Positions 60 to 31,197 of a stretch of 64,000 bases of DNA are shown piece by piece (position 1 is the stretch's first letter; every line of letters starts with the position of its first letter). The DNA lies in the NCBI GenBank assembly GCA_002205965.3, contig NADL03000492.1, positions 434,001 to 498,000 of the forward strand, read 5' to 3'. The position numbers and the translations under genes were made by a program. This DNA is from Kappaphycus alvarezii (taxonomy: Eukaryota > Rhodophyta > Florideophyceae > Gigartinales > Solieriaceae). A model generated the notes under the pieces. The model did no database searches and had not been told where the DNA came from. It saw only the letters and a program-made list of their open reading frames with translations.

Positions 60-1483
60 TCAGGTTTGGAACTTTACCGTGTCCGGCAGGGCGTGCGTCT
101 CCATTCCATGAGCCGTCACGGCCACGACATTCAACCGACGAGAGACTTCGGGGTGACTTGTCATGGACGCCTGAGTCACTGTGACAATCTTGGAAACCAG
201 ACGCTTCAACTTCTTCCTTGCTTCATCCGCGTTTCCCCGGAGAAGCTGCCCGAAATTCATTCCCGACGAGACCGAAGCCATTTCCACGACCACATTATAC
301 TTCCTTACCTGGCCGTGGAGGGCTCCAGATGCTTTCTTGGTCTTCCTTTTCTTAGTTTTCTTCATCCTTGGCTCCAACACGACCATCTGTGGGCGAACGA
401 GAGGGGCGTTATTCATCAGCGCGTCTATGTCAATAAAATTGTCCCTACGTTGCTTCGAAAGGGCTTGGCCGTCGGCTTTCCTCTTTGCCGCGGCCAACAC
501 ATCGCCCTTGTGAGCCTCCTGGACGACGAAAACGGGCTCACGTCATTCTTTTCCCCCAGTTTAAGTTCTTCTCTCGACTCCGACCTTGCTTTGGCAATTA
601 ATACACGACGGTCTCCATCTTGCTGTCCCTTGGACCAGCACGTTGCCTCTGAGTGACCTCTCTTTCCACAGAAAGAACACCAAGTGTGGCTGTGAGAGTT
701 CCGCTGGCATTGCGTGGCTCTATGGCCCCTTTGCCCACAGAAACTGCACTTAAAGTCATCATTGACTATGGCGACAGGTCCTCCCTTCTCACACTGATTC
801 TTCACGAAGAGGTAAAATTCCGAAAACTGTCCCGCTAGCTGGTCTACCTTTTCCTCCAGCTGTTTTGGCTTGACAGCGTGATCGTTAGGCCTCTGAAGAA
901 TCCTCCTCGGAGCGACCAAAGGCGCTTGAGCCGTCTTCTTGTTGGCAAAAAACGCTTTGTCTCCTAACTGAAAGTCTTTTATTCTGAAGTTCCTTGTAGT
1001 CCAACAGCGCTTGATACATGACAAATTGAGCCAACTCCGGGTGTTCCGCCACTGCCTTCCGAAGTAAACCGAAGGAAGCCGTCTCGTTGATGCCTTTTCT
1101 CTTGTAGAGGCCATCCATTCGCGTCAAAGACCCTCCTATGTCTCTAGTGTCCAGTCGTGCTTCAATTGCTTCGTGGACTTTCTCTTCCGGCTTATCCTTC
1201 TTGGCAAACTCGGTAAGGAGCTTCTTCTTGACGATATCATACTTCTCGTATTCTTCAGTGAGGGACCCATCCTGCGCAAACGACTCATAGTAAATTCGAA
1301 ATCTGCCCCCTCCAGATGGCACATAATCTGGAGGGCCTTCTCGTTGTCCGTCTTTACGCGCATAACGACGTTCTCGAAAGCAAAAAGGAAACGGGAAATA
1401 TCGGAGGAGGGGAATCCATCAAAGGAGAGGTGAGGGGCGTTGGAGTCTGTCGTAGCGTCGTCGAACCTTTGATGCGGTACCAT
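60..1483 (-). pseudogene. Ty3/gypsy-type gag, frameshifted, runs toward left edge
   Basis: The minus strand reads a gag-like protein in at least three frames: N-terminus from 1483, central helical part 1322-885, zinc-knuckle part 1114-425 and a lysine-rich tail to about 60. The knuckle part carries two CCHC boxes, CSFCGQRGHRATQC and CSFCGKRGHSEATC, at about 638-748, as expected for nucleic-acid-binding nucleocapsid. The central block (…YYESFAQDGSLTEEYEKYD…) also occurs in the gag at 57.8 kb (…FYYDTFSKDCSLTEESKNYE…), so the two are one gypsy family. The tail block 'FGQLLRGNADEARKK' resembles the gag-protease linker of fungal and algal gypsy elements. Frame changes near 1320 and 1000 make it a pseudogene. 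Protease and polymerase would lie left of the window. The family call is strong; the exact boundaries are inferred. Confidence 0.8.
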
Positions 1484-1575: not shown

Positions 1576-1593
1576 ACAGTATATATATACTGT
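1576..1593. repeat. Perfect 18-bp palindrome with TATA core
   Basis: ACAGTATATATATACTGT reads the same on both strands. It lies about 100 bp upstream of the family A reading frame that starts at 1693 and could double as a TATA element. The motif ACAGTA/TACTGT is unusually common throughout the window. Function is not known. Confidence 0.55.
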
Positions 1594-1692
1594 TTCGAAG
1601 ATATCTCCCTATTTAAATTTCGAAATCGACGTCCTTGAAGAAAACCCCCTGCCATCAACTACTCCATCGGGTGACCCCTTTTTGCCCGCAAC

Positions 1693-2309
1693 ATGACCAA
1701 CTTTCTGCCGTTCCTCACCATCACCAAGTCATCCCGAGGCTGCCGTCTTCTCAACGCGCTGGCCCTGATGGCCAGTGGACCAACGGATTATGGCGACTAC
1801 TGTAGGAGAACAGACCAGGAACGCGTTCGGGAGTGGGTCCGCCGGCATTGCTTCGAAGAGGCGGAAGAGACGGAAGAGACAGAAGAGGCAGAGAAAGGTT
1901 GGGTAGAAGAGGTATAGCAAGAGTAGGATGAAGAGAAGGACTGGGTGGACCCGTGGGATCCACTAGTGTACAACGTTGGGGGAGCTGCGGTGGAGAACGA
2001 AGTGGAATCACAGAGAGTAATCGTTATCTTTGACTCTTTTGACAAGGATGAAGAGGAGGATGAAGAGGAGGATGACGGGAAGGAGACATGGAAAGTGTTG
2101 GAATGCGGGGTAGGGGGCTGGGAAATATGGACCAGGTGGTTCCGATTCTGGAACCGGATGAGGGCATCTTCAGTGGTTTAGATATTTCCCAGGAGGAAAG
2201 AAAAAATTGTAAGCTGTTCGCGGATATTTCCGGGGGCTGCTTGGGTCGCATGGATATTTCGGAAGCTTTTTTGGCTCTGATCTGGAGGACTAGAATACTA
2301 AGGAAATAA
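1693..2309 (+). pseudogene. Family A ORF1 (acidic protein), copy 1
   Basis: This is a small Glu/Asp-rich protein of unknown function, seen in five copies in this window. It starts MTNFLPFL at 1693 in context CAACATGAC. An early block 'SGPTDYGDYCRR' is followed by 'WVRRHCFEEAEE', a long acidic tract, and a conserved C-terminus (NMDQVVPILEPDEGIF, LDISQEE, FADISGG). Compare 'SGPTDRNDYQRR' and 'FVRRFFVEDEAEE' in copy 5. An in-frame stop at 1915-1917 and a frame change near 2090 break it. I recognise no known domain. It precedes the non-LTR reverse transcriptase at 2795 on the same strand and may be ORF1 of that element. Confidence 0.6.
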
Positions 2310-2742
2310 TCTAGATATTTATCCTGATAGTATCTGCTGTTAGTCTTTCTCGTTCACAAGATTCCATTTGATGCATTTTATGGTTATCAGTATGTGTGTT
2401 TGAGAATTTAGGCGTAGCAAAAAGTCTATGTAAGCCGAGTAAACTGCTTCCTCTTGTGGAGGTCAAGCAAGTTGGCAGACAACTTAAAGTCAAGTCGTGA
2501 CAAGTAGGAAGTTGAGAGTCAACTTCAGACCCAAGAAACATTTTCCTTACGCTGGTCACAGAGCATCAGTGGTAGACCCTTCCCCACCCATACTTGCTTG
2601 AAGCCCCCTCAACTGTCTTCTATATCCACTCCATTTTGTTCGCTCAACTATACTACGGTAGCACTTCTGTCGCTTGGAACACCTCCTTCTCGGGGTACTC
2701 GGATCTAAGTATTTCTTATTCCTACGATTTACCCCTATCACA
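2310..2742 (+). repeat. Family A 3' segment, copy 1
   Basis: About 430 bp shared with 12.78-13.22, 15.39-15.81, 24.85-25.27 and (reversed) 28.23-28.67 kb. It contains the TATA-like box (here degraded to TCTATGTAAG near 2425), the block AACTGCTTCCTCTTG, the block GAGAGTCAACTTCAGACCCA, and a fixed end GATTTACCCCTATCAC. It separates ORF1 from the RT reading frame, so it may act as a promoter or leader for the RT. That role is inferred. Confidence 0.8.
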
Positions 2743-2794: not shown

Positions 2795-3846
2795 ATGAGG
2801 GAAAGAATAGATTTATGGAACGCGGGGAACTTCAGAACACTATTAGCGTACGCACTCGACCAGACCAAAAACCGCACGGCACCAGCTCGTTCCACTTCGG
2901 GCCAGCAACAGGTCAATATAAAAAGGGCTACAAAGCTGGACAAAGATGGTGCGTACGGAAAGGCTGCACAAGCTTTGCGCTCGCTGGGCGTGCTATAGCT
3001 ACCAGTGATGTAATCGATGCCCTCATCGATAAACATCCCTAGCAGGCTCCTGATGAAACAACTCTAGGCAGTGGAACATTTTATACCAACTACAGTTTCC
3101 GATAGATTACTGAAGACGAAGTACTTGGCGCTATCGGGGCATTTACACCAGGATCTTCTCCCGGAGGCTCAGGTCTAAAGCCTTGCCACCTGGTAGAATT
3201 GCTAAGATATCCATCCTCATCGGGGAATTCCGGCTTTTTGGCAGCTCTTACAAGACTTGTTCATGTTTTAGCAACTGGGAAAGCACCAGCCATTCTCGCT
3301 CCTTGGATCGCTGGTGCTCCACTAACCCCGTTGGCGAAGAAGGGCATGTCGCCTAGGCCAATCGCCGTTGGGGAGGTGCTGCGCAGAATGGTCGGTAGCT
3401 GCTTGATGAAGCGAATGTTCCAGAAGGCGGCAGACTACATCCAACATCTCCAAGTGGGTATCCGCACAAAGTCGGGTACCGACACAGTGTTGCATGGAAT
3501 CCGAAGAGTCGTTCATGAGTTCAGCTGTGACCCAGCATATGGGCTATTGACGGTCGATCTCAAGAACGCTTTTAATATGAGCAGCAGATCCGCTTTTCTG
3601 ACCGAGATGGGACAGCTATTCCCAGAGTTAGAGCCTTGGGTCTCATATTGCTATGCAAACGAGCCCGCATTCCTGTTGATAGGTAGTCACACCATAAGAA
3701 GCGTCTGCGGGACCCAACAGGGAGACAAACTTGGATGCCTCCTCTTCGACCTGGTGCTGCACCCTTTTATCCTCAAATACAACAACTCTTCGGTTCAGAG
3801 GAAGGGGAGAACAGAGATTTGGCAAAGATGTTACTTCAACTGTGGT
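2795..3846 (+). pseudogene. Non-LTR reverse transcriptase, 5' part (split by copia element)
   Basis: It starts MRERIDLWNAGNF and shows the family's repeated 'RATKLDKDGAYGKAAQAL' block. It then shifts frame near 2990 and continues through stops at 3040-3042 and 3103-3105. From 3160 it gives SGLKPCHLVELL, RPIAVGEVLRRMVG, the palm motif TVDLKNAFNMSS (catalytic Asp) and CGTQQGDKLG, all typical of the 'RPIAVGE' group of non-LTR reverse transcriptases. The frame is cut at 3846, exactly where the copia LTR begins, just before the YxDD motif. The remainder resumes at 9392. Homologous pieces lie at 13.2, 14.6, 16.0 and 26.1 kb. Confidence 0.85.
3842..3846. repeat. 5-bp target-site duplication, left
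   Basis: GTGGT directly precedes the left LTR and is repeated at 9392-9396 directly after the right LTR. A 5-bp duplication is normal for Ty1/copia integration and fixes both element ends. Confidence 0.9.
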
Positions 3847-4401
3847 TGCAAAGTAATTGGGATAGGTAGATCAAAATAATAATAAATAGTTCCAACTTGA
3901 ATAAATAAATAAATAAATGCCACAATCGGACTTAGAATGAATAATGAATAGAAAACCAAATTTAATAATATCTGATCGAGGGGAATATTTCGATAGCCCG
4001 AGGATGTAAAAAATATTTCTAACAACCTAGACTACTTATACTCTACACCAGGGTGAACCTGCTACAAAAATCAGGTGAGCCGTTCAATAATTTTGGTAGA
4101 CATAATTTAGGCTCAGCAATAATTATTGCAGTATTTTCCAGGTAAGCAATCATCCAGATAATAATTTGTTGGTAGCATAAATGTAGTAATTATAGCCTGT
4201 ATAATAAAAACCCAACTGTAGGACATAAAAATTATTTCACACTGAATTCAGCATAAAATAGTGCCAGTGTAAAATAGAGAAAATTATTCCTTGCTGATTC
4301 ATAATAAATATAAATTCTGGGCCTCAATAAAAATATTGCTCCACAATTCAGCATCACTGTAGGACACCGGGATAGAGATTAATATTTGGTCAATTTTCAC
4401 A
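3847..4401 (-). repeat. 3' LTR of GalEa-like copia
   Basis: Plus strand runs TGCAAAGTAATTGGG to ATTTTCACA. It matches 8844-9391 almost throughout. An ATAAATAAATAAATAAATGCC microsatellite near the left end is one unit longer here than in the other LTR. Confidence 0.93.
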
Positions 4402-4431: not shown

Positions 4432-5196
4432 TTATCCTGTTGACTGAGATGAATCTCGAGATAAAATATTACTCATATCCATATGTATAGATCCATCAAA
4501 TAAAAGGAGATTGAGCATGTCAGATACAGGACTGTCCTTTTTTGTGAGCCGGGTCGGAGGATTAATTGAACCAGGTATCCATAGCATTTTCTTGATTTTG
4601 TTCGTTTCGAAATTATATCGAATTAATTGAACATCCGCTCTAATAGATTTATCTCCAGGCACACGACAAGTAGATAGAGAGCTGAATAGATCTTTTGAAT
4701 CAACAGCAACATGAAGAGGAATATTGATATTTAGAAGTGTACTGTATGCTGCTGCAATAATTTTTCCTTCCTCGATAGCTTCACCAGCAGCCAATATTTC
4801 ACCAGATGCAATAGATTTAACAGGACGCCGAGATAGATGTGAATGCCAATAAATTGTATGAAATATTGAATTACAATTTAAGGAGCCAATTAGCAACCCA
4901 CCAATACATCCAAGTTGCGCATTTGTCGATCCGGCTGGTTTTCCTGCATCAGAAAAAACAACAACTGATAAATTGAAATTTCCAGAAACTTCCGGGCGCC
5001 GATACGTGCTTGTAGAACCAAAAGATTTTAAATTCCGAAGCATAGAAGATTGGATAGATAAATCACGAACCAATGGATTTGACCTTTTCTGTTGTAAATA
5101 ACTTGCTGTAAAGGCAGACACTGGAGATGCAACCATACCCAAATAGACAATTGATCCGTTTAACGAATTAAAAGCAAAGTTTTCAAATGAGTTCAT
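4432..5196 (-). pseudogene. GalEa-like copia RNase H domain
   Basis: A 254-aa open frame forming the C-terminal end of pol. Residues near 93-98 read VVFSDAGKP (first catalytic Asp), followed by GGLLIGS, YWHSHLSRRP, the block SIASGEILAAGEAIEEGK with the catalytic Glu, and VAVDSKDLFSSL with the next Asp. RNase H removes the RNA template during cDNA synthesis. The frame is open, but it is offset from the upstream RT frame (stop near 5204), so it would need a frameshift to be made as part of pol. Confidence 0.85.
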
Positions 5197-5203
5197 TTCT
5201 TCA

Positions 5204-6085
5204 TCAGGTTGTTTTCGACGATTTCTTGATATTGAATGGGGTTCCAGTCCATTTAGCTTTCATCAGCTGAGACATTAATTTTATAGTCATCAAACTGCAT
5301 GATTTTAACTCCATTGAAATAAAAAGATCCAGGACTATGTACGATTGTACCAAGCTTATATACTTTCCCAAGATCTTGGATAAATTGCTTCTTAATTTTT
5401 TTTGTCCAGTAATAAGTATATCATCGACCAATTTAACAACAAGCAGAATTAATGATCCTTTTAAACTCATGAAAAATAATTGGGGTATATAAACGACTGA
5501 TTTCAATCCGAGGTCAAAGAAAGTATTATCAGAGTGTATTTGCCATTTTGCATTCGCGTTGACTAACCCATATGAAGCAGACAGTAATAACCAATAGAAG
5601 GATTTTTCGGAGCATTCCCGAGGAGGTCTCACATAAACATCTCGTAATGCTGATCCAGATTGTAAAAATGCAGACTTCACATCAACCTTTGATAAATTCC
5701 ATTTAAAAATTGTAGCAATTGATAAGAGAATTCTAATTGCCATCGGAGAACAAGATTCCGAATCAGTTCTCAAATTATTTTTCTCCTTGTCCTCATTTCC
5801 ATGCGGAGCAATTCGAGCCTTGCAATAATATTTTCCATCATCCAAAATTTTTATTTTGTATAAAACGTGACTGGATATTACATTCGAGTCGGGAGGAATT
5901 TTTGAAACATGAATTTTTGAACAGGTAGTGAGAAAATTATTTTCTTCCGTATTGTACGCATTTGAAATAATATGAGATGGAAGTCCAGATGCTTGATGAA
6001 GTAAAAATTCTTTAGATCCAAACCTTTTATGATAAAAACTCAGATCTTTTTGTTCAGATGATTTCAATTCCGTTCCAGGTAACAA
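5204..6085 (-). pseudogene. GalEa-like copia reverse transcriptase
   Basis: A 293-aa frame. Recognisable blocks: YYCKARIAPHGNED, LSKVDVKSAFLQSG (palm Asp), DVYVRPPREC and VVKLVDDILITGQ, the equivalent of the YVDD box with leucine in place of tyrosine. It lies between integrase and RNase H in normal copia order. The last part is degraded (long runs of Leu/Ser after the VDD box), suggesting frame damage near 5300. Confidence 0.87.
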
Positions 6086-6135
6086 CTCAATTTCATGCGC
6101 ATCAATTCCATCGTTTTCATCAATAGGGATATGAA

Positions 6136-7304
6136 TTAAATTTTCAGGGTGCAGGGAACTAAGTTCAGATTCAATCGGAACATGTTCGAGAGATAATATG
6201 TTTTTAGATTCTGATAAATTTCCATCATTTCTGATTCATTATATTTTTCGACATCAGTATTCATATTTGTTAAAATTACCATCATCAGAATGATCGTCAA
6301 AATTGTTTTCGCCCACATTCTTCACTTCGGTAATATTTGTTTCATCAGAAATATCTTCCACAGAATATTCAATAGACTGATTCAATAAATCATTTGCCTT
6401 TTGAATTTGGTATGCTAGTTCATTAGATGAAACGGAATGTCGGACATCTTCAATTGCAGCATGTATAAATTTTCCATTGGATCCAGGTACTGTGACGATA
6501 AGAGATTTTTTGTCGAATTTCAATACTGGTTTGGGCGATGACCAAGATCCTTTTTCTGATTTGGTAGATGAATAAAAATTTCCACAATATCGCCAACATT
6601 AATTGGAATATCGGTCACAGACTTTGATTTTAGAATAAGATTTAATTTCCTCTTGGCTATTAGCTCATTATGAGCTTCTCTTAAATCATTTGGTAGACTT
6701 CGAGGACCAGAATTATCGATGGGTCGAGTGTGACCAGTGGCAAGCTCGTATGAAGAAACAACATCATTTCCATATAAATCATTCGATATTTGAAACATTC
6801 GAGCAATACGAACCGTATTACTTGCAGAAGAATCGGATATTTTTAAACGGATATAAATGTCTCTCAATATTTTATGTTTTGACTCAATATAATTTTTGTT
6901 ATGGCGGCGGGAACCAATAGGACAAAACGAAATTCCTCTTTCCTCAAGATAGCTTCTAAAATTATCATTGTCAAACGCCTGATCTCCCATTAAATGTTAG
7001 GGTCCCAAAATGGTGTTAACCAGAGAGTCTCAATACAATCAATGCAATTTTCCATCCTTAAAGAGGGCACTATTGAACCAGTTGAATACCTGGTAACCGA
7101 GTCCATAATGTGAAAAATATCCAAGTTTTCCACAAAAAAATGATCCACACAAACCAATTCATTAAATCCGCGAGATATAGAGCTTAAAGATACTGCACGA
7201 GGATGAGATGGTTTTTTTGTGACATCACAAAATTTGCAGGAGTCAATTATGCTTGATAAATATTTTTTGCATTCATCGTCCCATATAAAATTTCTTTGTA
7301 ACAA
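6136..7304 (-). pseudogene. GalEa-like copia integrase, three frames
   Basis: Residues from 7304 downward hold the zinc-binding end (CKFCDVTKKPSHPRA), then VCVDHFFVENLDIFHIMDS with the first catalytic Asp. After a frameshift near 6990 the frame GDQAFDNDNFRSYLEERGI carries the second Asp region, and IESKHKILRDIYIRLK follows with the likely catalytic Glu. The block YGNDVVSSYELATGHTRP and NVGDIVEIFI is the C-terminal part typical of this branch. Acidic linker sequence extends to 6136. The integrase would insert the cDNA; the frameshifts make it non-functional as read. Confidence 0.85.
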
Positions 7305-7353
7305 TAGTTTTATATCATAATTTGAGTGACCACATACATGTTTGTGAACCTTA

Positions 7354-8840
7354 TTAATTATTTCTTCTTTTCAGCCCAAGATATATTTTTGATGTATTGA
7401 TATTGTTGGAACAAATTGCTGATAGAAATGAGTTTTCAATAGGTTCGGATGATTGTATAAATATATTTCCGGGTACATAACAATGATGACCATGATCCAC
7501 CAATGTTATAGAATCGATTGAATTATTTGCGGACTCGAACTCGATGCGATTGTCCGTCATATGAATAATATTTGATTTTCTTGTGATATTTCTTCCAATA
7601 ACCCATTGAGATGATCCACTGATTATTAGATGCCTTATTTTAACCTGATTTCCATTGTCTGAAATAGCTGATAAAAATATTGAACCGATCATTTTTCTTT
7701 TTTCGCTTGAGTGGTCGCCATTTCCGTATTGCCAGAAGGGCGTGTCCTTGATACATTCAGGAAGTTCATCAAGAATTCCATTCCATTTCGGTAAAATAAA
7801 TTTCGAAAGTGCTCGTAATTCAACAATACCCATTCCACTATACGGTGCTCCATCATCAAGTAACGGACCTGGGTATAACGTATTTGACGGAGAATCAAGC
7901 ACCGTTTTTACCATATGAAATGTTACAGAACCAGAATCATTTTTGTCTTTGATATTTTCTGCATTTCCCATTCTAGATGATGAACCTTTATGATAATTTT
8001 TAGCACTCTTGCATTTATCTTTTTCATAGGCCCAATGGCCAATTTCTCCACATCGGTCACAAGTTGATTTTGCCTTGAGCGCAGCAAAGTCTTCAGGAGA
8101 TAATCTTTGCTTATTATTTTTCTTGAAATTTTTCTTTTCTCCGTATGAAATATTTGATTGACTTGAAGAGATATATTTTTGAGCATTTCCATATATTTGA
8201 TTTGTATTTTTTGGTTTATCACATGCACGAATAATAGATGATATTTCTGAATATTTGATTAATTCTAGGATTTTTCCTTTTTCCAAATCGGCTTCTTCAT
8301 GCTTCGGAGAAGCAGCAGCCAAAATAGATACTCGCTGGTTTGAATCAATTTTGGAATTAGCCAGGAGCAAAAATGATACCAGTGCTTCAGGTAATTTCGA
8401 AGTACCAGTAGATGAATGAAATCGGGCAATTTGAGCATCAAACCGTGATTCAAAATTTTTGAAAGACTCACTATCACCACGAGTAGTGTGCAATAGATCT
8501 AAGAATTTTTGAAATGTATCTGATATAGATGATAGAGGATCCACCTTATGAATAGCGTTAGCAATCGCTAATGCACCATTTTCAGACTGAATTTCTGTGT
8601 CTGGAATTTTCTTACAAATATCAAGAGCTCGTCCAAATAATTGTGATTGTAAGACAAGACCTTGTACTGCCTTAGGAACCTTATTAGAATTTGATGCTGG
8701 TAATAAATCATGAACAGATTTCCATTTTGAACAGCATCAAAATATTTTTCTTGAGGTCCTTTACCATCCGTCCAAGGAGCCGTGCGAAGATCCCATGAAA
8801 ATTTCGGCCTTGAAGGAATTTCGGGGCGATCTGGGCCCAT
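7354..8840 (-). pseudogene. GalEa-like copia gag-protease
   Basis: Reading starts at the ATG inside the primer site (8840-8838) as MGPDRPEIPSRPKF. It shifts frame near 8715 and then stays open over 396 codons to 7354. The zinc knuckle is C-D-R-C-G-E-I-G-H followed seven residues later by Cys (residues 162-178 of the open part), a longer spacing than the standard CX2CX4HX4C. The protease site reads LLDDGAPYSGMG at residues 228-239. One base change apart, gag would be intact. The choice of start rests on position and on the same arrangement in the 41-46 kb element. Confidence 0.85.
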
Positions 8841-8843
8841 AAC
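8831..8843 (-). other. Primer-binding site for half initiator tRNA-Met
   Basis: The minus strand reads GTTATGGGCCCAG directly inside the 5' LTR. It is complementary to CTGGGCCCATAAC, the anticodon arm of eukaryotic initiator tRNA-Met, as in Drosophila copia, which primes from a cleaved tRNA half. The ATG in this site also opens the gag frame. Confidence 0.85.
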
Positions 8844-9391
8844 TGCAAAATAATTGGGATAGGTAGATCCAAATAATATAAATAGTTCCAACTTGAATAA
8901 ATAAATAAATGCCACAATCGGACTTAGAATGAATAATGAATAGAAAACCAAATTTAATATATCTGATCGAGGGGAATATTTCGATAGCCCGAGGATGTAA
9001 AAATATTTCTAACAACCTAGACTACTTATACTCTACACCAGGGTGAACCTGCTACAAAAATCAGGTGAGCCGTTCAATAATTTTGGTAGACATAATTTAG
9101 GCTCAGCAATAATTATTGCAGTATTTTCCAGGTAAGCAATCATCCAGATAATAATTTGTTGGTAGCATAAATGTAGTAATTATAGCCTGTATAAAAAACC
9201 AAACTGTAGGACATAAAAATTATTTCACACTGAATTCAGCATAAAATAGTGCCAGTGTAAAATAGAGAAAATTATTCCTTGATGATTCATAATAAATATA
9301 AATTCTGGGCCTCAATAAAAATATTGCTCCACAATTCAGCATCACTGTAGGACACCGGGATAGAGATTAAAATATTTGGTCCATTTTCACA
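8844..9391 (-). repeat. 5' LTR of GalEa-like copia
   Basis: Plus strand runs TGCAAAATAATTGGG to CCATTTTCACA. It is collinear with 3847-4401 with only small indels and a few substitutions. Confidence 0.93.
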
Positions 9392-11198: not shown

Positions 11199-11699
11199 GG
11201 AGCACCTGAGGTACATACTTTTCCGACGTTACATTTGTCAATCCACTTGCTCCCTCCAATACAAGGGCCCGTTGCTTCAACCCCTTTACATCTCTGAAGG
11301 CCGCGAAATCGTCAAAGTTTAGAAGGTATCAAGACTTCACCACCACGTCTGTTAGATCCCGACTCATCCCAGTGATGATATCCACTCTCAGCTGGTGGCA
11401 TCCGGACGCATTCGCGGTGCTCACAGACGTGGCTTGGCACGTAACCATACGAGCCATAGAGACCTTCGGGCGGGTACGATCTGTCCTATACAAAGACACG
11501 CTGCGGTGGCTGTTTCGTCCAACGCAGCATCCCTTACAGCTGGCCCCACACTAGCCCTGTGAGGTAGCACCTCATGACTTGGCCTCATTTCCAGAATCTC
11601 AAATACATAGACCTGAACCCTCTACAGTAGCCTTCGGAAAATAGCTGTCCTGCATCCCTAATCAGTAAAACACCCTAATTCCTCCCCCCTCTCGTCAGG
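11199..11699. other. Decayed coding remnant
   Basis: A 60-codon frame at 11372-11554 (MMISTLSWWHPDAFAVLTD…RWLFRPTQ) has the look of coding sequence but no identifiable domain, and it is not continuous with the ORF before it. The rest is non-coding. Confidence 0.3.
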
Positions 11700-13221
11700 C
11701 TCGCGCGAATCGAAATTGAAAGTTTTGTTTGTTGTCCTCATCTACCGACTTCTGATTTACTGCAGTACCTTCTCTTGTCGAAAATTTCTTTTAGTTCTGG
11801 TACTTCCTCGCCCTCCCTCAGTTAAGCAACTTCCTGGGAGAATACGCCTCCTTCCCTATCCTTCTTTATCCTTTCTGTGGTCCTCTCCAAAATTCACTCC
11901 AATTTCATCTATATATTCTAATACTATACCCACCCCTCTGAATCCATGCCCAATCAAGTTCTTTTTCCCTTCAGCCCACCTCCTTCTCAAAATTCATTTT
12001 TTGGGAAAAAGGCGCATATGTACTACTACAAACTCCCTTTTAGATTTATTTTATCTATTTCAAATCTATATAATGTGCCCTCTGGAGCCTTTTTTACCCT
12101 TTATTCCAAGTTTCGAACTTCCTCGATCATTCTACGATCATTCTAGATCATCTTACAGACTAGCCCTCTACCCTTACTCATTCGAAACACCCCCGATTAC
12201 CTGCCAATCCTTCAATTACACCAAAATGAACAACCTAGGCCCCTCCAGCGTCATTTCCAAAACTCGCCACCCTCCCCCCCTAAGCGCCACCCCCTATTCT
12301 CTTTCGGCTCCATTGACCACGATGAATCTCTCCGCTGGCAAACGAAGAAGAAGGTGATCAATTTAACTCATCGCTTGTTCATCGAGGATGAGGCGGCAGA
12401 GGTAAGTGACAGGCAGGAAAAGAAGGGCGAGGGTGGAGCCGGGGAGACTTTTGAGGAATGAGCGGCCGGAATTGTTTTACGAGAATGAGGAGGAGGACGG
12501 AAAGGATAAGGAGGAGGATAGGGAGGATGAAGAGGAGGACGGGAAGCATGAGGGGGAGGGAGAAATGGAAAGTATTGGAATGGTGGGACGGGGGCTGTAA
12601 AGTATGGACGAGGTAGTCCCGACGCTGGAACCGCATGGGGGCATCCCCCGTGCTTTAGATGTCTCCAAGGAGGAAATAGAGAATTGTAAGCCGTTCGCAG
12701 ATATTTGTGGTTACTGCTTGGGTAGCATAGGTATTTTGGGGGAGTTGTTTGGTTTTGATCTAGGGGATGGGAAATGAGAAGTCTGGATCGATTTTTCGTT
12801 TCTCAAGTATCATTTGCGTAGAGTATATCATCCACATAAATTGTTTTTATGCATTTTCTGGTATTTTTAATCGTTTTGTTCGGAATTTAGGGGCAATAAA
12901 AAGTCTATATAACCTGATTAAACTGCTTCCTCTTGGATAGGTCAAGAAATTTGGCAGAAAACCTCAAGCCAAGTCCCGAGTAGTAGGAAGTTGAGAGTCA
13001 ACTTCAGACCCAAAAATCATTCTTCTTTCGCTGGTCACAGAGCATCAGTGGTAGAACCTTCCCCTTCTATACTTGCTTGTAACCCTCCCAACTGTCGTCC
13101 TTACCCACCTCTTTCTGGTTGCTCAACTATTCCACGATAGCACTTTTTTCGCTTGCAACACCTCTTTCTTGGAGTAATTGGTTCTGAGTATCTCTTCTCC
13201 CAATGATTTATCCCTATCAAC
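11700..13221 (+). mobile_element. Family A unit, copy 2 (near full length)
   Basis: This is the longest plus-strand copy. The 5' region, from TTTTGTTTGTTGTCCTCATC, matches the 5' end of copy 5 for over 500 bp, including CTACAAACTCCCTT and TTTATTCCAAGTTT. Then come ORF1, the 3' segment with TATA box (TCTATATAACC near 12905) and the fixed end CTATCAAC. RT sequence begins immediately after the end. No LTRs and no terminal inverted repeats were found. The 5' boundary is approximate. Confidence 0.72.
12226..12777 (+). pseudogene. Family A ORF1, copy 2
   Basis: It starts MNNLGPSSVISKTR in context CAAAATGA. The same N-terminus in copy 5 reads MDNLCPSEVISTNR. The body QTKKKVINLTHRLFIEDEAAE is in another frame. 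The acidic tract is mostly GAG/GAC codons. The C-terminus (MDEVVPTLEPHGG, FADICGYCLG, ELFGFDLGDGK stop) is in the family frame. Frameshifts near 12290 and stops near 12460 and 12600 break it. Function unknown. Confidence 0.6.
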
Positions 13222-13830
13222 TCTAACAAGAATTCCTTCAACTCCATCGAACCTCGCATCACTCTCGCCAGAATAATCAAATGGCTGCCCAAGGACTTCC
13301 GCTGCGTGCAAGTTCTTTACGGAGCTGACTTGTGACTCACGTTTGGCCGCCAAATCATGCACAACCGCACTGGAACCTAACGAGGGGACCCCTTAGGTAT
13401 GCTCCTGTTCGTCCTCGCGCTGCAACAGCTGCTCTTCGAACTCCGCAATACCTTTCCCCACCTGCCCCTTATCGGCTGGTAAGCAGATGATGGAAAACTC
13501 ATCGTGCCACTGGAATACGCTCGCTGTATACTCTGGTTTTTCTCCGACAGTGGACCGGCCTCCGGGTTCAACATCAACTTTCCCGTCACAAGACTCCCGC
13601 ATGGTGGCCAAACGCCCCGTACCAGGACCCACTTCCCCGCTGCAATCCCGTGCGACTTCAAGACTGCGAAGGCCATTACTACGCTCGATATCCCGTTTGA
13701 CGGTCGCGCAGGATGCCTCCACCTCCTTGACGATAACCTCAACACCATCAGATCGTTCAGGGTATCTTTTATCATGTGTAACGACCAACTAAAAAAGCTG
13801 CGGGCGGAGGCTGAGAGAAAGGGCTAGTTC
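13222..13830 (+). pseudogene. Non-LTR reverse transcriptase palm fragment
   Basis: Directly after family A copy 2 comes NSFNSIEPRIT (the DLKNAFNS motif), then RGDPLGMLLFVLALQQLL and, at 13480-13490, the catalytic loop stop-A-D-D-G: the tyrosine of YADDG is replaced by TAA. The block VPLEYARCILWFFSDSG and IRSFRVSFIMCNDQL close the fragment at 13827. Upstream RT motifs (RPIAVGE) are missing, so the 5' part has been deleted relative to 2795-3846. An in-frame stop near 13332 also occurs. Confidence 0.82.
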
Positions 13831-14599: not shown

Positions 14600-15140
14600 C
14601 ATCCAACTGGAGAACTTGGTCTCTAGGACGTCCCGACTGGAAGAAATAACCGCACACCTTCACACTGACAGCTTATATCGCCTGCAACACCAAACACCCG
14701 CATCATCTTCCCATCACCGTGACCGCCTGACTGCCGCTGCTTCGACCGCCGCATCCGCTCCATTCTATACCTTTCCGCTTTTCAGCAAGGTCCATTACAT
14801 CGGGGCCGAAGTCTGGCGCACTATTGTTGTCAGGCTCGGTAACAATATACTCGACGGCTCTCATCTCTGACGGACAAGCCCCGCGCAGCACCTCCCCATA
14901 CTTGCCGCACCCGGTCACCACGCCTCCGTGTGTAATAGCGCGGTAGGGTCCGTGAGGCGGCACAATCGGGTACGAGACACTCTATTCCGCCACCTTATCA
15001 ACGATGCTATTGGCCTGTCTGTCTCACGAGAACGATCCCTGGCGGCTGATCTCCACCAAACCCCAGCATAACAACGAACAAAACTGGACCTCGCCATCGA
15101 TGACCCGCTTGATGTGCACTACGCTTGCACGCAAAAAAAT
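14600..15140 (+). pseudogene. Non-LTR element C-terminal region with R2-like endonuclease core
   Basis: The plus strand gives FPLFSKVHYIGAEVWRTIVVRLG, then a zinc-finger-like stretch ending PGHHASVC and the strictly ordered RRHNRVRDTLF, then TKLDLAIDDPLD. A Cys/His cluster followed by RHN and a later Asp-containing strand is the layout of the restriction-like endonuclease of R2-type non-LTR elements. Stops interrupt it near 14868 and 15068. It probably belongs to the same gene as 13222-13830. Confidence 0.72.
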
Positions 15141-15384
15141 CTAGAATAAGACAAAATTCGAATACAGTAGCGGAATTTGCAAGATAATTTTTAACTTAGG
15201 GGACTGTGGTAAATTCATTGGTCGATTTTTAAATTTAAAGACACGCTGTCATTAATAGATGTTAGTGTACGTTTAGTTTCTGGGTGATACTAGGAGTGAC
15301 TATGAAAGGTCCATATAATGACCACATAAATTCCCACCCCTGGCCGATGGGTGGCGGGCATGGGTATGGCACCTAGATACTTAC

Positions 15385-15805
15385 TTCGAGGAAATATCTT
15401 CTGTTAGTCTCTCTCGTGCATCCGATTCGCTTTAATGCATTTTGTGGTACTTGGTTTGTTTGTTTGGGACTTTAGAGTTGCCAGAAAGTCTATATAGCCT
15501 GATTAAACTGCTTCCTATTGGATAGGTAAAGAGAGTTGGCAGACAACTTCAAGCCAAGTCCCGAGTAGTAGGAAGCTGAGAGTCAACTTCAGACCCAAAA
15601 ACCATTCTTCTTTCGCTGGTCACAGAGCATCAGTGATAGAACCTTCCCCTTCTATACTTGCTTGTAACCCTCCCAACTGTCGTCCTTACCCACCTCTTTT
15701 TGTTCGCTGAACTATACCAAGGTAGCACTTTTGTCGCTCGCAACACCTCCTTCTTGGAGTAATTGGTTCTTAGTGTCTCTTCTTCTGAGGATTTACCGCT
15801 ATCAC
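15385..15805 (+). repeat. Family A 3' segment, copy 3 (5'-truncated)
   Basis: Only the 3' segment is present: TCTATATAGCC near 15490, CAACTTCAGACCCA near 15590 and the fixed end TTTACCGCTATCAC. ORF1 is absent. Truncation at the 5' side with a constant 3' end is typical of target-primed retrotransposition. Confidence 0.8.
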
Positions 15806-15959
15806 CCCTCTTCGCTCCCTCCTCGCAAGGAATTAACGTTAATATCGTTCGCCTTTACTCTCATCCCTACCGAGACCTTGCCGATGGCGGGATATCCGCG
15901 CTCGAATGTGCCACCCTGAAGAAGCTCATCTACTACGGCACCAAATGCCGTCTGAAGGC

Positions 15960-17312: not shown

Positions 17313-17816
17313 AATACCTCTTTCTAGCAGTCATGACAGTATTGCCATAATTGATTCCTACTGTACAAACTCAATAAGTAGAGTACAGTACTTGGTATAT
17401 TACGATGTACAGTGCGAAGTACAGTTCCTCATTTGGCACTAGTACAGTACGTGTACAACACTGCACAAAAAGGTTTCTTCTCTTAGCTGTACCACGTGTA
17501 CATCACATACACAACTGCCACCACGTACACGTGTACATAGCTTTCCTCAGCATATCTCTCATACAGTATACTCATCATCCACTTATAGTACCCTACCCTA
17601 CGTAAAATCACCCCATAAACAACATTTTGCCCTCTAAATCGCTGATCTCTCAAAATCGTACTTTCGTCCCTGGGAACTTTGGATTTCTTCCGGAATGCCT
17701 TAGCGCCACCCTTCATTCGACACGTGTGCATGTGTACACGTGGAACATGCCTCATGCCTCTTATGAGGTTTGGCACCGATGTGGGGTCATGTGATCGTCT
17801 TGCCAAATCAACAACA
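17313..17816 (-). repeat. Candidate 3' LTR with four CACGTG boxes
   Basis: Minus-strand start TGTTGTTGATTTGG follows the polypurine tract. CACGTG occurs at 17493, 17528, 17721 and 17737, the last two forming a larger inverted repeat. ACAGTA motifs are dense at 17370-17450. CACGTG is a binding core for bHLH and bZIP factors; use here is inferred. No second LTR was found to prove the boundaries. Confidence 0.45.
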
Positions 17817-17835
17817 CCCCCCTCGATTACATGAC

Positions 17836-18324
17836 CTAAGCATCGTGCAGCTCTCCGAGGCCTAGAGATTTTATGCATTGTATGAATTGAATGCGACCAA
17901 GAGGCTTGGTGAGTATATCTGCTGGCATATCTGTAGAAGGTACGTGAAACAGTGAAACAATCTTTCGAGTCACAGCATCTCGGACAAAATGATATGATAT
18001 GTCAATGTGCTTATTTCGCCTGTTCACTCCTTCGTTACCCGCAAACGCTATTGTACCAGCATTATCACACCCGATTGTAACTGTGCTGTCTTTCGACTTT
18101 CCCAATGCGTCTGCAAGAAGGCACCTGAGCCAAGCTGCCTCTTTGCAAGCCTCACACAGTGCAATATACTCCGCTTCGCATGTGGATTTCGCAACGACCG
18201 TTTGTCTCCTAGATGACCAACTAATAGCTCCCCCACACAGTTTGAACACATATCCACTGGTGGACTTTCTCGAGTCCAAGCAACCACCCCAGTCTGCATC
18301 GCTGAAGCCCTCTAGAGTTTGCAC
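17836..18324 (-). pseudogene. Copia RNase H domain
   Basis: A 162-aa frame with FSDADWGGCLDSRKSTSGY (catalytic Asp), STCEAEYIALCEACKEAAW (catalytic Glu), IGCDNAGTIAFAGN (Asp) and the copia end block MPADILTKPLGR. All active residues are kept. It is separated from the RT frame by one indel near 18330. Confidence 0.92.
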
Positions 18325-18338
18325 TGGGAGATTTCCAT

Positions 18339-19991: not shown

Positions 19992-20806
19992 AGCTCTTGT
20001 CGTGACACGATTGCGAACGTAAACTGCGTTATCAGAGCTTCAGCCCAGAAAGCTTTCGGAACCTTCATATGGGACAGCATAGACCTGACGAGATCAATCA
20101 GGGTACGATTGAGCCGTTCTGCCACACCATTCTGTTCAGGTGTGTATGCAGCGGTCGTTTGATGAACAGTTCCTTGTGACGATAGAAAGGATTGGAACTC
20201 TGAAGAAAGATACTCTCCTCCACGATCAGATCGAAGCACTTTCACGCGTTGACCAGTGTGTGTGAAGGCATATTGGGCAAACTTCTGATAAAAATGGAAC
20301 GTTTCATCTTTACTCTTCATCGGATAGACAACACTCCAGTTTGAGTGGTCATCGATAAAAGTGACAAAGTATCTAGCACCACCTACTGACTGTACTTGGA
20401 GTGGGCCGCAGACGTCCGAATGGACCAAGTCTAGCAAATGTTTGGCCCTGCCTCCAGAGCGCTGTTTAGGAATCACAGCACGAGTTGCTTTTCCTAACAC
20501 ACACGCATCACATGTCACAGATTCACAGTCAGAAGATGAGCTAGCGTCTCTTGTTATATCTGAAGAGGAGATATGAAGTCCACTTACCACGTTCTTACGA
20601 GCCATGGACAATATTCCTTGAGTGTGAACGTGGGCCAATCTTTCATGCCATGTCTTCAAAGAGGCTTTGTGCGCCGAATGAACCTCGTTACATGTGTCAA
20701 GCACATACAGCTCTCCTCGACTTGTGGCAGTAGCCACGATGCAGTCACTCCTCTTCACAGTGCACTTGTCACGAACGAACTCAACGTCAAATCCATTATC
20801 GACCAT
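19955..20806 (-). pseudogene. Copia integrase
   Basis: A 283-aa frame with gag-pre-integrase ELYVLDT, the HHCC zinc finger (TWHERLAHVHTQG…CDACVLGK), LVHSDVCGPL (Asp), VLRSDRGGEYLS (Asp) and YTPEQNGVAERLNRTL (Glu). The frame is lost near 20030 within the ALITQFTF stretch, where the sequence continues in the next frame. Confidence 0.92.
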
Positions 20807-20818
20807 CTTACGTACAGA

Positions 20819-21901: not shown

Positions 21902-22078
21902 CGATCCTCCTCCTTGATCTTCTTACTTTCTATTCTATGCTAATCTAATGTTCTGTCGATCCCGCCGGGCCGATATTCCCTTGTAGTGGCAAGCCCACCT
22001 CTATAAGAACACAGCACACGAAACTCTAGACTAAAGCAAAGGCCAAAGACGTCGCTTCAAACAAACAAATGGATCTCT

Positions 22079-24515: not shown

Positions 24516-24639
24516 GTAGTTACAGTTTTGTTCTCAATTATTTTTAGAGGGGGGCTTTGCGCCGTACTGTAGCGGTGCCAATAGGGCATATAGGTACTGT
24601 ATTGGTGCTACGGATTGTGAGGGTTGAAAACTTTATATA

Positions 24640-25272
24640 AGGGACCGGAAAATATGGACCAGGTGTTCCCGATTCTGGAACTGGCTGGGGGCGTCCTCAG
24701 TGGTTTAAATATTTCGCAGGAGGCAATGGAGAATTCTAAGCCGTTCGCGGATATTTATGTGGACTAACTGGGCGGAATGGATATTTTGGGGGAACTGTTC
24801 GGCTCTGATATAGAGGACTAAGATATTAAGGAAAAAATCTAGATATTTATCCTGTTAGTTTCTGCAGTTAGTCATTCTCGTTCACACGATTCCATTTGAT
24901 GCATTTTATGGTTCTTAGTATGTTTCTTTGAGACTTTAGGGATACCCAAAAAGTCTATATAGGCTGAGTAAACTGCTTCCTCTTGTGGAGTTCAAGCAAG
25001 TTGGCAGACAACTTCAAGCCAAGTCCTGAGTAGTAGGGAGTTGAGAGTCAACTTCAGACCCAAGAAACCTTTTTCCTATGCTGCTCACAGAGCATCAGTG
25101 GTAGACCCTGCCCCTTCCATACTTGCTTGTAGAACTCTCAACTCTCTTCCGTATACACTCCTTTTTATTCGTTTAACCATACCACGGCAGCACTTTTGTC
25201 GCTTGCAACACCTCCTTCTTGGGGTAGTTTGTTCTGAATATCTCTTCTCCCGACGATTTACCCCTATCAACA
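24640..25272 (+). mobile_element. Family A unit, copy 4 (5'-truncated in ORF1)
   Basis: It begins inside ORF1 (NMDQVFPILELAGG, LNISQEAMENSKPFADI, ELFGSDIED stop), then the full 3' segment with TCTATATAGGC near 24950 and the end CCCCTATCAAC. A stop (TAA, near 24767) interrupts ORF1. The 5' truncation point differs from those of the other copies. Confidence 0.75.
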
Positions 25273-28224: not shown

Positions 28225-28670
28225 GGTTGATAGGGGTAAATCATCGGGAGAAGGGATACTCAGAACCAATTACCCCATGTAGGATGTGTTTCAAGCGACA
28301 AAAAGTGCTACCGTGGTATAGTTGAACGAGCAAAAAGGAGCGGATTAGGAAGAAAGTTGAGAGGGCTACAAGCAAGTATAAAAGGAGCAGGGTCTACAAC
28401 TGATGCTCTGCGACCAGCGTAGGAAAAATTTTTCTTGGGTCTGAAGTTGACTCTAAACTTCCTACTACTCCATACTTGACTTGGAATTGTCTGCCAACTT
28501 TCTTCACCTCTCCATGAGGAAGCATTTTACTCAGCTTATATAGACTTTTAGCTACCCCTAAAGTCCGAGAAAAACTACAGAAGATACCAGGAAATGCATA
28601 AAAACACTTTTTGTGGATGATGTATTTTAAACAAAAGATACTTAAGAAACCAACAATCGATCTGGTCCTC

Positions 28671-29318
28671 TTATTTCCCATTCTCTAGATCAGACCCAAA
28701 CAACTCCTCCAAAATATCCATGGTGCCCAAGCAGTCCCCACAAATATCTGCGAACGGGTCATAACTCTCTATTTCCTCCTGGGAGATATCTAAACACTAA
28801 AGAAGCCATCATCTGGATCCAGCGTCGGGACCACTTGGTCCATACCGTTCAGCCCCGGCCCCACCAATCCAACACTTCCCATGTCTCCCTCCCCCTCATC
28901 CTCCTCGTCATCTTCTTCGTCCTCCTCTTAATCATCATCCTCGTCAACCTCATCGTCCTCCTCTTCATCATCCTCCTTGTCAACCTCGTCGTCCTCCTCT
29001 TCATCCTCCTCCTCGTCAACCTCGTCGTCCTCCTCTTCATCATCCTCCTCGTCAACCTCGTAGACCAATTCCGGGGCTACCCACTCCTCGAAAGTCTCCC
29101 CGGCTCCCTCCTCGACTTCCCACTCCTGCCCCTCACCTACCTCCTCCGCCTCATCCTCGACGAAAAAGCGGCGCACGAATTAGATCACCTTCTTTTTGGT
29201 TTGTCGGCGTTGGTAGTCATTACGGTCAGTAGGTCCGGAAGGGAGTAGGGGAATGGGGTTTGCAGGGCGGGGGTTGCGATTTGTGGAAATGACCTCGGAG
29301 GGGCAAAGGTTGTCCATT
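28671..29318 (-). pseudogene. Family A ORF1, copy 5
   Basis: The best-preserved copy. It starts MDNLCPSEVISTNRNPRP in context CAAAATGG; a stop at about 29195 separates this from FVRRFFVEDEAEEVGEGQEW. The acidic centre is built from four 12-residue repeats of the DEEDDEEEDDEV type. The end (MDQVVPTLDPDDG, FADICGDCLGTMDILEELF, GSDLENGK stop) follows after frame changes. Predicted product about 215 residues, very acidic, with no known domain. Confidence 0.62.
28930..29062. repeat. 36-bp tandem repeat coding the acidic tract
   Basis: About four units of the CTCGTCGTCCTCCTCTTCAT type on the plus strand, each 36 bp and thus frame-preserving (12 residues of Asp/Glu/Val on the minus strand). Confidence 0.8.
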
Positions 29319-29789
29319 TTGGTCTGCTTTGGGGAGTGGTAGGCAATTGATTGTGTTTTCAGTGGGTAGGGGGAGAGTAGTGGTGACTACAATGATCGGG
29401 GACGTTTAAAACTTGGAATAAAGAGGTTTAAATAGGCTCCCGAGGGCGCATTCTATAGATTTGGAATAGGTAAAATAAATCTACAAGGGAGTTTGTAGTA
29501 GTGAATTTGCGCCCTTTTCTCAAAAAATGAATTTGGAGGAGGAGGTAAGCGAAAAGGAAAAAAAATTGATTCGGGATCGATATAGAGAGGTAGATACAGC
29601 ATAAAAATATCTAGATAAAATGGCAGTGATTTTGGGGAGGACCGCGGTAAGAATAAGCAAAGGTCAGGGAGGGCGAGGAAGGACCAGAACTAAAAGAATT
29701 TCGGACAAGGAGAGGTAGTACAGTAAATTAAAAGTCGGTAGATGATGGCGACAAAAAAATCCGTTCCGATCCGCACGCGCTTAACACAG

Positions 29790-31197
29790 GTCAAGAGAAC
29801 AATTGGTATTTAAATTCAGGTGCATTTAAGCACATGAACAATGAAAAAGAGTACTTTATTGGTGCAATTATTTCGTCTATGACGAGTATTATATCCGTAG
29901 GTGCCGATATGAAGATCTCTGTCACAGGTGAGGGCTGAGTGCAATTCTGGGTACGTGGTGAAGACGAAAGGCGTACAAATGCACATGCATAATTTACTAT
30001 GGGTTCTATGCATTATGTGCAACCTCATATCAGTCAGTGCAGTTCAAAAGAGGGGAATCATGGCATTATTCATGTCAGTCGACGATCGAGATGTAATACC
30101 TCTTATTTTGACACAGGACTCTATGCAAATACCCAAAGTTGGCCAAGAACTCTCTGAAGGACTCTATGAAGCGGAAGTCTACCGTACTGCTCACAATATT
30201 CAGGCAATGCTGATGGCTCGCGGTAATGAGGAGCTGATCAGACTCTGGCACCGAAGACTTGATCATACTAGCCTTGATTACCAACGGAAGACACTGAAGC
30301 GAATCGTTCATGAAGTTCCAAAGATTTATTTGACAATCATCGGCCACTGTGAGCCATGTGCAGAAGGAAAAGAAACACGGGAACCTCTATTACCAATCAC
30401 AAAGTCAAACATAACTAAAATTATAGAGCTGGTCCATTCTGATGTCTTTGGACCAATGAATCTGGAAGGTATGTCTCGGTCAAGAAATTTTGTATCACTC
30501 TATGGTGAAAAGGGATGAATTTTGGCCATCAGGTTTTTCAGAGACAGGACTCAAGTGGGAGAGAGCTTGGAAGAGATGCTCGCTCTCTTCGCAAACCAGA
30601 CCGCATGCAAGCTAAATAGGACTGGATTTGATAACATAGTAGAATACATTCGTGAAGAGTACACAGAATGGCTCAAACAGAGAATTATTTGTATCAATCT
30701 CACTCTTAGCTACAGTCCGGAGTCGAGTGGAAACTCTGAGAGACTAGACAGGACTCTTAACGAGAAAGTACGTACATTGTTCAGGACAATCCAAGGCACC
30801 TCATACAGCAGGCAGTTATGGGCAGAGGCAGTAAACACTGCGAACTAAATCGGGAATAGAGCTTTTTTTCGAAGAGATAGCGAACCAGAAGTGACTCTTT
30901 TTGAAGTGTATACGGGCATGAATCGGTAAATATCACATCTATGTGCATTTGGATGAAAATGTTACGTCTATATTACTACAGAGCACCGCAAGCAGAGCGC
31001 AAAGTACAAAAATCGCACTGCGAAAGGAATTTTTCGTGGATACGACCGAGGCAAGTTTTACAAGAACTTCGTTCCCCATCAAAAGAAGATGATTGATTCA
31101 AAGTACGTGACATTAAACGAATCTGTGACTGGATGGGAACCACCAATCACATCACAAGATGCAGGACAGGTGGACTTATCGGAGATTTCCAATGCTT
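29790..31197 (+). pseudogene. Copia protease and integrase, decayed
   Basis: Protease: NNWYLNSGAFKHMNN, where the catalytic Asp of the WxxDSGA site is Asn. Integrase from about 30190: ELIRLWHRRLDHTSLDYQ…CEPCAEGKETRE (zinc finger), ELVHSDVFGPMN (Asp), then after a stop at 30516-30518 the frame RDRTQVGESL and YSPESSGNSERLDRTL (Glu block). The tail reaches KGIFRGYDRGKFYK near 31060. Several stops; inactive. Confidence 0.82.

Follow-up and report, generated by a model that had tools for sequence, protein, structure and literature searches.

A putative accessory gene inside the long terminal repeat of a high-copy Ty3/gypsy retrotransposon family in Kappaphycus alvarezii

Five related stretches of DNA in a 64,000-nucleotide region of the Kappaphycus alvarezii genome (herein referred to as the window) are solo long terminal repeats (LTRs) or LTR fragments, and the acidic open reading frame (ORF) carried by ORF-bearing LTRs of this family lies wholly within U3. 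The explanation that we favor for the whole, and hold to be likely, is that of a high-copy Ty3/gypsy LTR with an accessory gene in U3 that has been under selection and that would be expressed from an mRNA of its own to give a nuclear factor acting in trans. The ORF is in our reading an accessory gene of the LTR with the layout of sag from mouse mammary tumor virus (MMTV), and its function we infer from the character of the predicted protein.

The repeated unit and the element to which it belongs

Comparison of the window with itself (blastn) confirmed five homologous copies near the places given in an initial annotation of this DNA, with matched stretches at 2045-2745, 11724-13223, 15373-15807 and 24638-25271 on the plus strand and at 28225-29759 on the minus strand. 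The features assigned to these copies are as follows (L numbers are loci fetched from the genome; sub1 and sub2 are LTR subfamilies described below).

1587..2740, plus: copy 1, sub1-like LTR of the ORF type, 5' end lost, ending CTATCA; no matching 5-bp flanks
1610..1617, plus: TATTTAAA box upstream of the copy 1 ORF, candidate promoter P1 (from sequence)
1693..2293, plus: LTR-encoded acidic ORF of copy 1, degenerate (stops and a frame shift)
2426..2435, plus: main-promoter TATA-like box of copy 1, CTATGTAAGC (CTATATAAGC in L016 and copy 5)
11693..13219, plus: copy 2, LTR of sub2 type, probably solo and full-length; flanks CCTCT / ACTCT, four of five bases alike
12226..12777, plus: acidic ORF of copy 2, degenerate, C-terminal block readable
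15110..15804, plus: copy 3, ORF-less LTR form, looks full-length; flanks CCGCT / CCCCT, four of five bases alike
24639..25269, plus: copy 4, 3' part of a sub1-type LTR, 5' end lost; 91% identical to L029
28228..29786, minus: copy 5, full-length sub2-type solo LTR, TGTTAAGC...CCCCTATCA, with a perfect target-site duplication (TSD), ACCTG, on both sides
28671..29317, minus: acidic ORF of copy 5, degenerate
29427..29434, minus: TATTTAAA box upstream of the copy 5 ORF
28534..28543, minus: main-promoter TATA box of copy 5, CTATATAAGC
29787..29791, second copy at 28223-28227: 5-bp TSD of copy 5

Copy 1 is 81% identical to positions 204-1374 of the L029 3' LTR, a comparison that extends it to 1587, and its start lies near an AT palindrome (CAGTATATATATACTG); the start of copy 2 was placed by eye at CGTCAGGC. 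Copy 3 matches the 720-bp LTR of L056, also ORF-less, at 83% identity from L056 position 91 to the end. All five copies end in CTATCA, four of them within the longer form ATTTACC[CG]CTATCA and copy 2 as TTTATCCCTATCA; the AC that had been counted as part of a fixed 3' end follows only in copies 2, 4 and 5 (copies 1 and 3 are without it) and is taken to be target-site sequence. Copies 1, 2 and 5 show blocks like those quoted for a shared acidic ORF; copy 4 retains the C-terminal part of that ORF, and copy 3 is ORF-less. The N-terminus given as MDNL is that of copy 5 and reads MTNF in copy 1 and MNNL in copy 2. Stops or frame shifts interrupt the ORF in all three of these copies, and intact ORFs are found elsewhere in the genome. 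The TATA-like box proposed for the 430-bp segment is present. A 430-bp LTR within copy 1 (TGATAG...CTATCA) was considered and rejected, as homology between copies continues past the inner TGATAG. Copy 5 does sit inside a copia-type gene, as first described: a GAG-pre-integrase domain adjoins it (Pfam, 8.9e-07, 29.1 bits against a cut-off of 28.4), and when the copy is removed in silico and its flanks are joined, the frame is open across the joint.

Other features were observed in the window. A non-LTR-type reverse transcriptase fragment, read by eye from its translation, lies just downstream of copy 1 (3106-3879, plus). Near-identical direct repeats at 3904-4385 and 8896-9373 (200 bp at 100%, 180 bp at 98%, and others) flank minus-strand frames at 4432-9008 that are of copia type by eye, and the whole is probably a young copia element. 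Long open copia-type frames of up to 566 aa occupy 17483-21922 on the minus strand (gag, integrase, reverse transcriptase and RNase H by eye), and relatives of the gag region of distant Ty3/gypsy elements occur at 115-1465 (minus) and 57936-59004 (plus), in tblastx pieces of 30-62% identity. A reading of the family A unit as an opposite-strand LTR of the minus-strand gag at 115-1465 is ruled out, since these LTRs have a gag of their own, on the same strand and downstream of them. Scans of the window with Rfam (gathering threshold) and for tRNAs were empty.

What had been described as a five-copy family exists in thousands of copies. The genome searched comprises 336,021,096 bases in 884 contigs, in which the window is C488:434001-498000. 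A DNA search with copy 1 yielded 5,790 first-look candidates, which makes the five copies of the window a small sample of a large family; 40 of these candidates were scored. Of the 44 matches obtained, the majority cover almost the full length of copy 1 at 77-84% identity, and the window itself matches at 100%. Copies elsewhere keep the fixed 3' end: its 16 bases have 5,801 genomic matches at no more than one mismatch, against 22 for the reversed control, and the junction of LTR and primer site has 2,158 at no more than three mismatches, against none for its control.

Boundaries were set from 20 genomic copies with flanks, compared all against all. Most pairs begin to align ~209 bp upstream of the position equivalent to 1587 in the window and stop at a common 3' end; L009, L015 and L027 have another upstream part in common, of ~355 bp. 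The common unit starts TGATGTGCGCAAAATTTGC and ends ATTTACCCCTATCA. For 14 of the 20 loci both LTR ends could be located. Among these, five have a perfect 5-bp TSD directly around one unit (L014, CTGGT; L019, ACTAC; L022, ACTTA; L023, AACCC; L025, GACAG), five are ends of larger elements (L013, L016 and L021 as 5' LTRs, L018 and L024 as 3' LTRs) and four are without a perfect duplication (L011, L017, L020, L026). The genomic units are hence of two kinds, solo LTRs and the LTRs of elements. Two elements were paired at both ends.

L013+L029: LTRs of 1371 and 1374 bp, 16 differences in 1364 positions (98.8%), TSD CTCTG, interior 6.0 kb
L021+L031: LTRs of 1370 and 1368 bp, 12 differences in 1366 positions (99.1%), TSD ATATC, interior 5.3 kb

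In both, the LTRs are direct repeats with a primer site, TTTGGTACTCTTGTGG, after the 5' LTR and a purine tract, GAGCGGGAGGGCG, before the 3' LTR. The first measures 8.8 kb as a whole, and the L031 interior is ~0.74 kb shorter than that of L029. Domains for aspartyl protease, reverse transcriptase, RNase H and integrase (zinc-binding and rve) are found by Pfam in sequence taken from L029, L033 and L030; a gag with two zinc-knuckle-like motifs can be read from the interior sequence, and pol is partly broken into several frames in the loci read. The L033 piece has its best PDB matches in Ty3 Gag-Pol (1e-89, over residues 64-628 of 667) and in Ty3 reverse transcriptase(-RNase H) (1.5e-83). By these sequence matches the family is a Ty3/gypsy (Metaviridae) retrotransposon, like Ty3 in its best matches for RT-RNase H and the integrase zinc-binding domain, in the order protease, reverse transcriptase, RNase H, integrase, in its TG...CA LTRs and in its 5-bp TSD. 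The LTRs of Ty3 are short and not known to carry a gene; the present family differs from it in the U3-encoded ORF and in an extra frame after integrase. The initial annotation was thus right in treating the unit as mobile DNA, which spreads by reverse transcription, and its impression of a unit without the usual enzymes gives way to that of an LTR, two of which enclose gag, protease, RT-RNase H and integrase.

The extra frame, between integrase and the purine tract, was seen at L029:5000-6130, L033:475-1332 (minus) and L056:300-1290. By eye it holds a ~115-aa domain twice in tandem (..ICLCFRTLNGPLLPEEDF.. / ..ICLCFRALHGPHLSYEDS..); a 286-aa piece of it has no Pfam match at E 0.01, and L056 has a similar-looking protein where its DNA can no longer be aligned with that of L029. 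Four LTR ends stand in a row at 7.1 kb spacing at C6:283342-304720, and five ORF signatures at 12.76 kb spacing at C3:31672-82739; each series may represent tandem elements or assembly repeats.

A non-autonomous retroposon, SINE-like or derived from a processed gene, with a constant 3' end and 5' truncation, would account for the shared 3' end and for the varied 5' points at which homology between copies stops. It is extremely improbable in view of the fixed TG 5' end, where a non-LTR retroposon or SINE would have none, together with the 5-bp TSDs, the pairs of units flanking gag-pol, the primer site and the purine tract. Helitron, SINE and processed-gene readings fall on the same grounds of fixed 5' ends, TSDs and paired LTRs. 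Ragged 5' ends had been reported for the window copies, and copies 1 and 4 do look truncated; copy 5 is full-length, however, and copies 2 and 3 look full-length, the apparent raggedness arising mainly from the comparison of LTR forms with unlike U3 starts. Copy 3 in particular is a natural ORF-less form of the LTR rather than a 5'-truncated copy.

LTR forms with and without the ORF

Three forms of the LTR can be distinguished, which share the end CTATCA. The sub1 LTR starts TGATGTG and measures about 1.34-1.39 kb; the sub2 LTR starts TGTAATAC or TGTTAAGC and measures about 1.49-1.56 kb. The U3 starts of these two do not align, whereas their 3' parts do. The third form, sub3 (L056, L057), has an LTR of 720 bp in L056, whose two ends correspond to sub1 sequence (85-86%), as far as LTR position 186 on one side and from 943 onward on the other, with ~101 bp of other sequence in place of the TATTTAAA box and the whole ORF of sub1; its last 338 bp are 91% like sub2. 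In the element formed by L016 and L030 (C14), the 5' LTR is sub1 and the 3' LTR sub2, without matching flanks, which indicates that elements recombine between LTR subfamilies.

Both the ORF-bearing and the ORF-less kinds are abundant. A signature for the C-terminal end of the ORF has 3,452 genomic matches and one for sub3 has 2,461, with no match for either control. Among the first 100 places listed in each case, many ORF signatures are paired ~7.5 kb apart and many sub3 signatures ~6.7 kb apart, spacings that complete elements of the two kinds would give, and the L056 interior shares the family interior (94% over the 494 bp compared). The ORF-less form has therefore spread as whole elements, and the accessory gene is not needed in cis for transposition.

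The ORF has the orientation of gag-pol and ends upstream of the main TATA box. In the L016 LTR the TATTTAAA box is at 231, the ATG at 316, the stop at 917, the main TATATAAG at 1053 and the LTR end at 1363, the frame being taken from intact relatives since that of L016 is broken; L016 also has private indels. It is this accessory gene of ~190-215 codons in U3 that makes the ORF-bearing LTR long (about 1.34-1.56 kb).

Conservation of the U3 ORF and its protein

How often the frame is intact depends on how copies are chosen. A protein search with the 189-aa L024 frame gave 192 matches, many without a stop (150 candidates scored), and a frame of 187-202 aa runs from ATG to stop in all 12 of the places fetched, which were picked as stop-free in that search; nine of these 12 finish with the usual ELFGSD[VIL]E[DE] or a near variant, and L034, L043 and L045 do not. 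A search with L054 showed 28 stop-free frames among the first 50 matches listed, by an eye count and in a ranking that favors intact frames. Ten sub2 loci were fetched regardless of frame (10 of 43 matches, picked by DNA similarity to copy 5), and two are intact, L054 with 211 aa and L055 with 214 aa. Among the 26 units first translated, which were not picked for open frames and of which 23 are sub1-like, none keeps the whole frame to the usual end. By the last two counts most sampled copies are dead.

That so many copies are broken invites the reading that the ORF is not a gene at all, and that a structured RNA or DNA element stays open by chance; the low-complexity acidic tract and the weak or absent signal of selection inside sub1 point the same way. 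Among the 14 sub1 ORFs the pooled pN/pS of 0.54 (bootstrap 0.43-0.70) speaks for coding. The C-terminal block alone gives a dN/dS of 0.83 within sub1, with no third-position excess, and recent sub1 copies show little sign of constraint.

Divergence between the subfamilies is of another character. In 172 ungapped codons compared between nine intact sub1 ORFs (of the 14, those with the usual C-terminus) and the two intact ORFs among the ten sub2 loci, differences at codon positions 1, 2 and 3 number 52.7, 47.4 and 95.8; pS is 0.75, which is saturated, pN is 0.285 and pN/pS is 0.38, at 54% amino-acid identity. The bootstrap range of this ratio, taken with L054 only and three sub1 ORFs per round, is 0.30-0.49, and removal of acidic columns leaves 120 codons with a pN/pS of 0.49 (0.38-0.64) and 48% identity. 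Since the first alignment had been guided by protein, it was redone on DNA alone: differences at the three codon positions are then 34, 33 and 52%, and per pair 543 bases align in phase against 29 out of phase. Stops per sequence number 0 in the ORF frame and 2.8-16.5 in the five other frames. Identity between subfamilies in other frames is 33-38%, except for one antisense frame that, at 51% (with 2.8 stops per sequence), is nearly as alike as the ORF frame at 54%.

Comparison of C-terminal blocks with seven of the 14 sub1 ORFs gave a dN/dS of 0.15 for L030, against 0.71 and 1.57 in shifted frames, and of 0.47 for W2, which is close to one of its shifted-frame controls (0.50 and 1.27); the distance analysis used 16 units. 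An ungapped comparison of N-terminal blocks between subfamilies was misaligned by gaps and was excluded, and L010, L028 and four sub1b units were left out of the conservation line on L016.

A frame kept over 211-214 codons, and 54% identity retained in the face of saturated synonymous change, argue for a protein gene under selection, and with the third-position excess on the DNA-only alignment and the absence of stops from the ORF frame only, they make chance openness improbable. On this sequence evidence the ORF is a protein gene that was kept by selection while the subfamilies diverged, and copies decay freely after insertion.

The predicted protein is strongly acidic, with 27-33% Asp+Glu and a net charge of -28 to -44 in the 14 sub1 frames. 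All 14 contain [VL]IV[IST] followed by Ser and acidic residues, typically VIVISDSSDEDEE, a stretch that we take to resemble a SUMO-interacting motif (SIM); the motif is absent from both intact sub2 ORFs (L054, L055). The C-terminus is a conserved acidic-hydrophobic block. An AlphaFold prediction made with 12 sequences (mean pLDDT 52) has one helix spanning residues 33-59 and further short ones at the C-terminus, and with low confidence suggests a protein that is mostly disordered with one N-terminal helix. The ORF had been described as having no known relatives, and indeed neither single ORFs nor the set of 12 gave a Pfam match above cut-off or a significant PDB match. The best Pfam match is BUD22, for sub2 only (L054, 4.2e-05, 23.5 bits; L055, 3.8e-05, 23.6 bits; cut-off 37), over residues 39 to 136 or 139, with Nop14 and DNA_pol_phi weaker; these matches we assume to reflect acidic composition.

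Proposed expression and function, and known systems

Two transcripts may be envisaged from an ORF-bearing LTR. The main TATA box, which is observed in sequence, should start the genomic RNA, and a short mRNA would start at the TATTTAAA box of U3 and end at the poly(A) site of the same LTR. This box precedes the ATG by 85 bp in L016, 115 bp in L030 and about 117 bp in copy 5, and is also found in copy 1. The same gene could instead be expressed in the manner of sag, as the final cistron, located in the 3' LTR, of a spliced RNA with its start further upstream. Any full-length genomic RNA includes the U3 of its 3' LTR, and copy 2 is without an exact TATTTAAA box, both of which favor this alternative. 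MMTV itself makes Sag from spliced transcripts, according to the available text of PMC3026287. Set against this are the presence of the box before the ATG in L016, L030 and copies 1 and 5, despite differing surrounding U3 sequence, and its loss together with the ORF in the ORF-less form. We regard spliced expression as a real possibility, though less likely than not, and a separate U3 mRNA as the preferred account.

The product of the U3 mRNA would be a nuclear factor acting in trans to aid transcription from LTRs, as an accessory transactivator of the Tax/Tas type would, or to oppose silencing. The acidity of the protein, its predicted disorder, the SIM-like motif of sub1 and the C-terminal acidic-hydrophobic block hint at such a role. 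A protein that is very acidic, apparently disordered and provided with one helix might equally be a partner of Gag or integrase that serves particle assembly or integration rather than transcription, since the sequence is silent on the step served; as ORF-less elements share the interior (L056) and have spread as LTR pairs, the protein is not needed in cis for assembly, and we judge this alternative unlikely, if well short of negligible. A nuclear role in promoting LTR transcription or resisting silencing is put forward here as a suggestion only.

The organisation resembles that of MMTV, in that the gene lies wholly in the LTR, on the sense strand, and is selected between subfamilies; the likeness drawn here is one of layout. 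The available text of PMC3026287 describes MMTV as 9 kb long with LTRs of ~1.3 kb that carry the Sag gene, so that the two share an element length of ~9 kb (here 8.8 kb, L013+L029) and an LTR lengthened by an accessory gene besides its promoter sites. They differ in that MMTV is a betaretrovirus encoding a superantigen, whereas the present family is Ty3/gypsy and encodes an acidic protein, and in that Sag comes from spliced RNAs, by the same text, whereas a TATA-like box here directly precedes the ORF.

Additional ORFs are known from other LTR retrotransposons. In the portions of the papers available, those of plants (aORFs) are for the most part located after pol and before the 3' LTR (PMC7264820), an orchid gypsy ORF of the 2-ODD type lies in internal sequence (PMC9289625) and ORF0 of Retrosat2 lies upstream of the gag-pol ORF (PMC3485330). 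Like the ORF described here, these are extra, poorly conserved frames beside gag-pol, mostly without known domains and in some cases reported to be nuclear; none is placed inside an LTR in those portions, which for ORF0 do not say so outright. The term "LTR-encoded" in PMC13195028 and PMC5408686 was rejected as a precedent, as in the text available it denotes proteins of the whole element. In the open-access literature searched, much of it available in part, no LTR-encoded ORF was recognised in a non-viral Ty3/gypsy element. A gene-bearing end-repeat is known from the mouse tumor virus and is unexpected in an element of this kind, and we know of no established LTR-internal gene outside vertebrate retroviruses.

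A gene in the LTR is copied to both ends of every insertion and survives reduction to a solo LTR by recombination, and the accessory protein can hence outlive the rest of the element. Taken further, each ORF-bearing LTR, even a solo one, may be a self-contained gene with promoter, ORF and poly(A) site, the intact ones making a nuclear, SUMO-binding acidic activator in trans, such that ORF-bearing LTRs would be producers and ORF-less elements would use the protein supplied. We offer this extended scheme tentatively and think it rather unlikely in full; if true, it would amount to a division of labor inside one retrotransposon family, with the producers among the ~3,450 copies that carry the ORF signature. 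The natural ORF-less form, with its closely related interior, provides a built-in comparison for the role of the protein. For annotation of this genome, the finding means that thousands of short acidic frames are parts of LTRs and not host genes.
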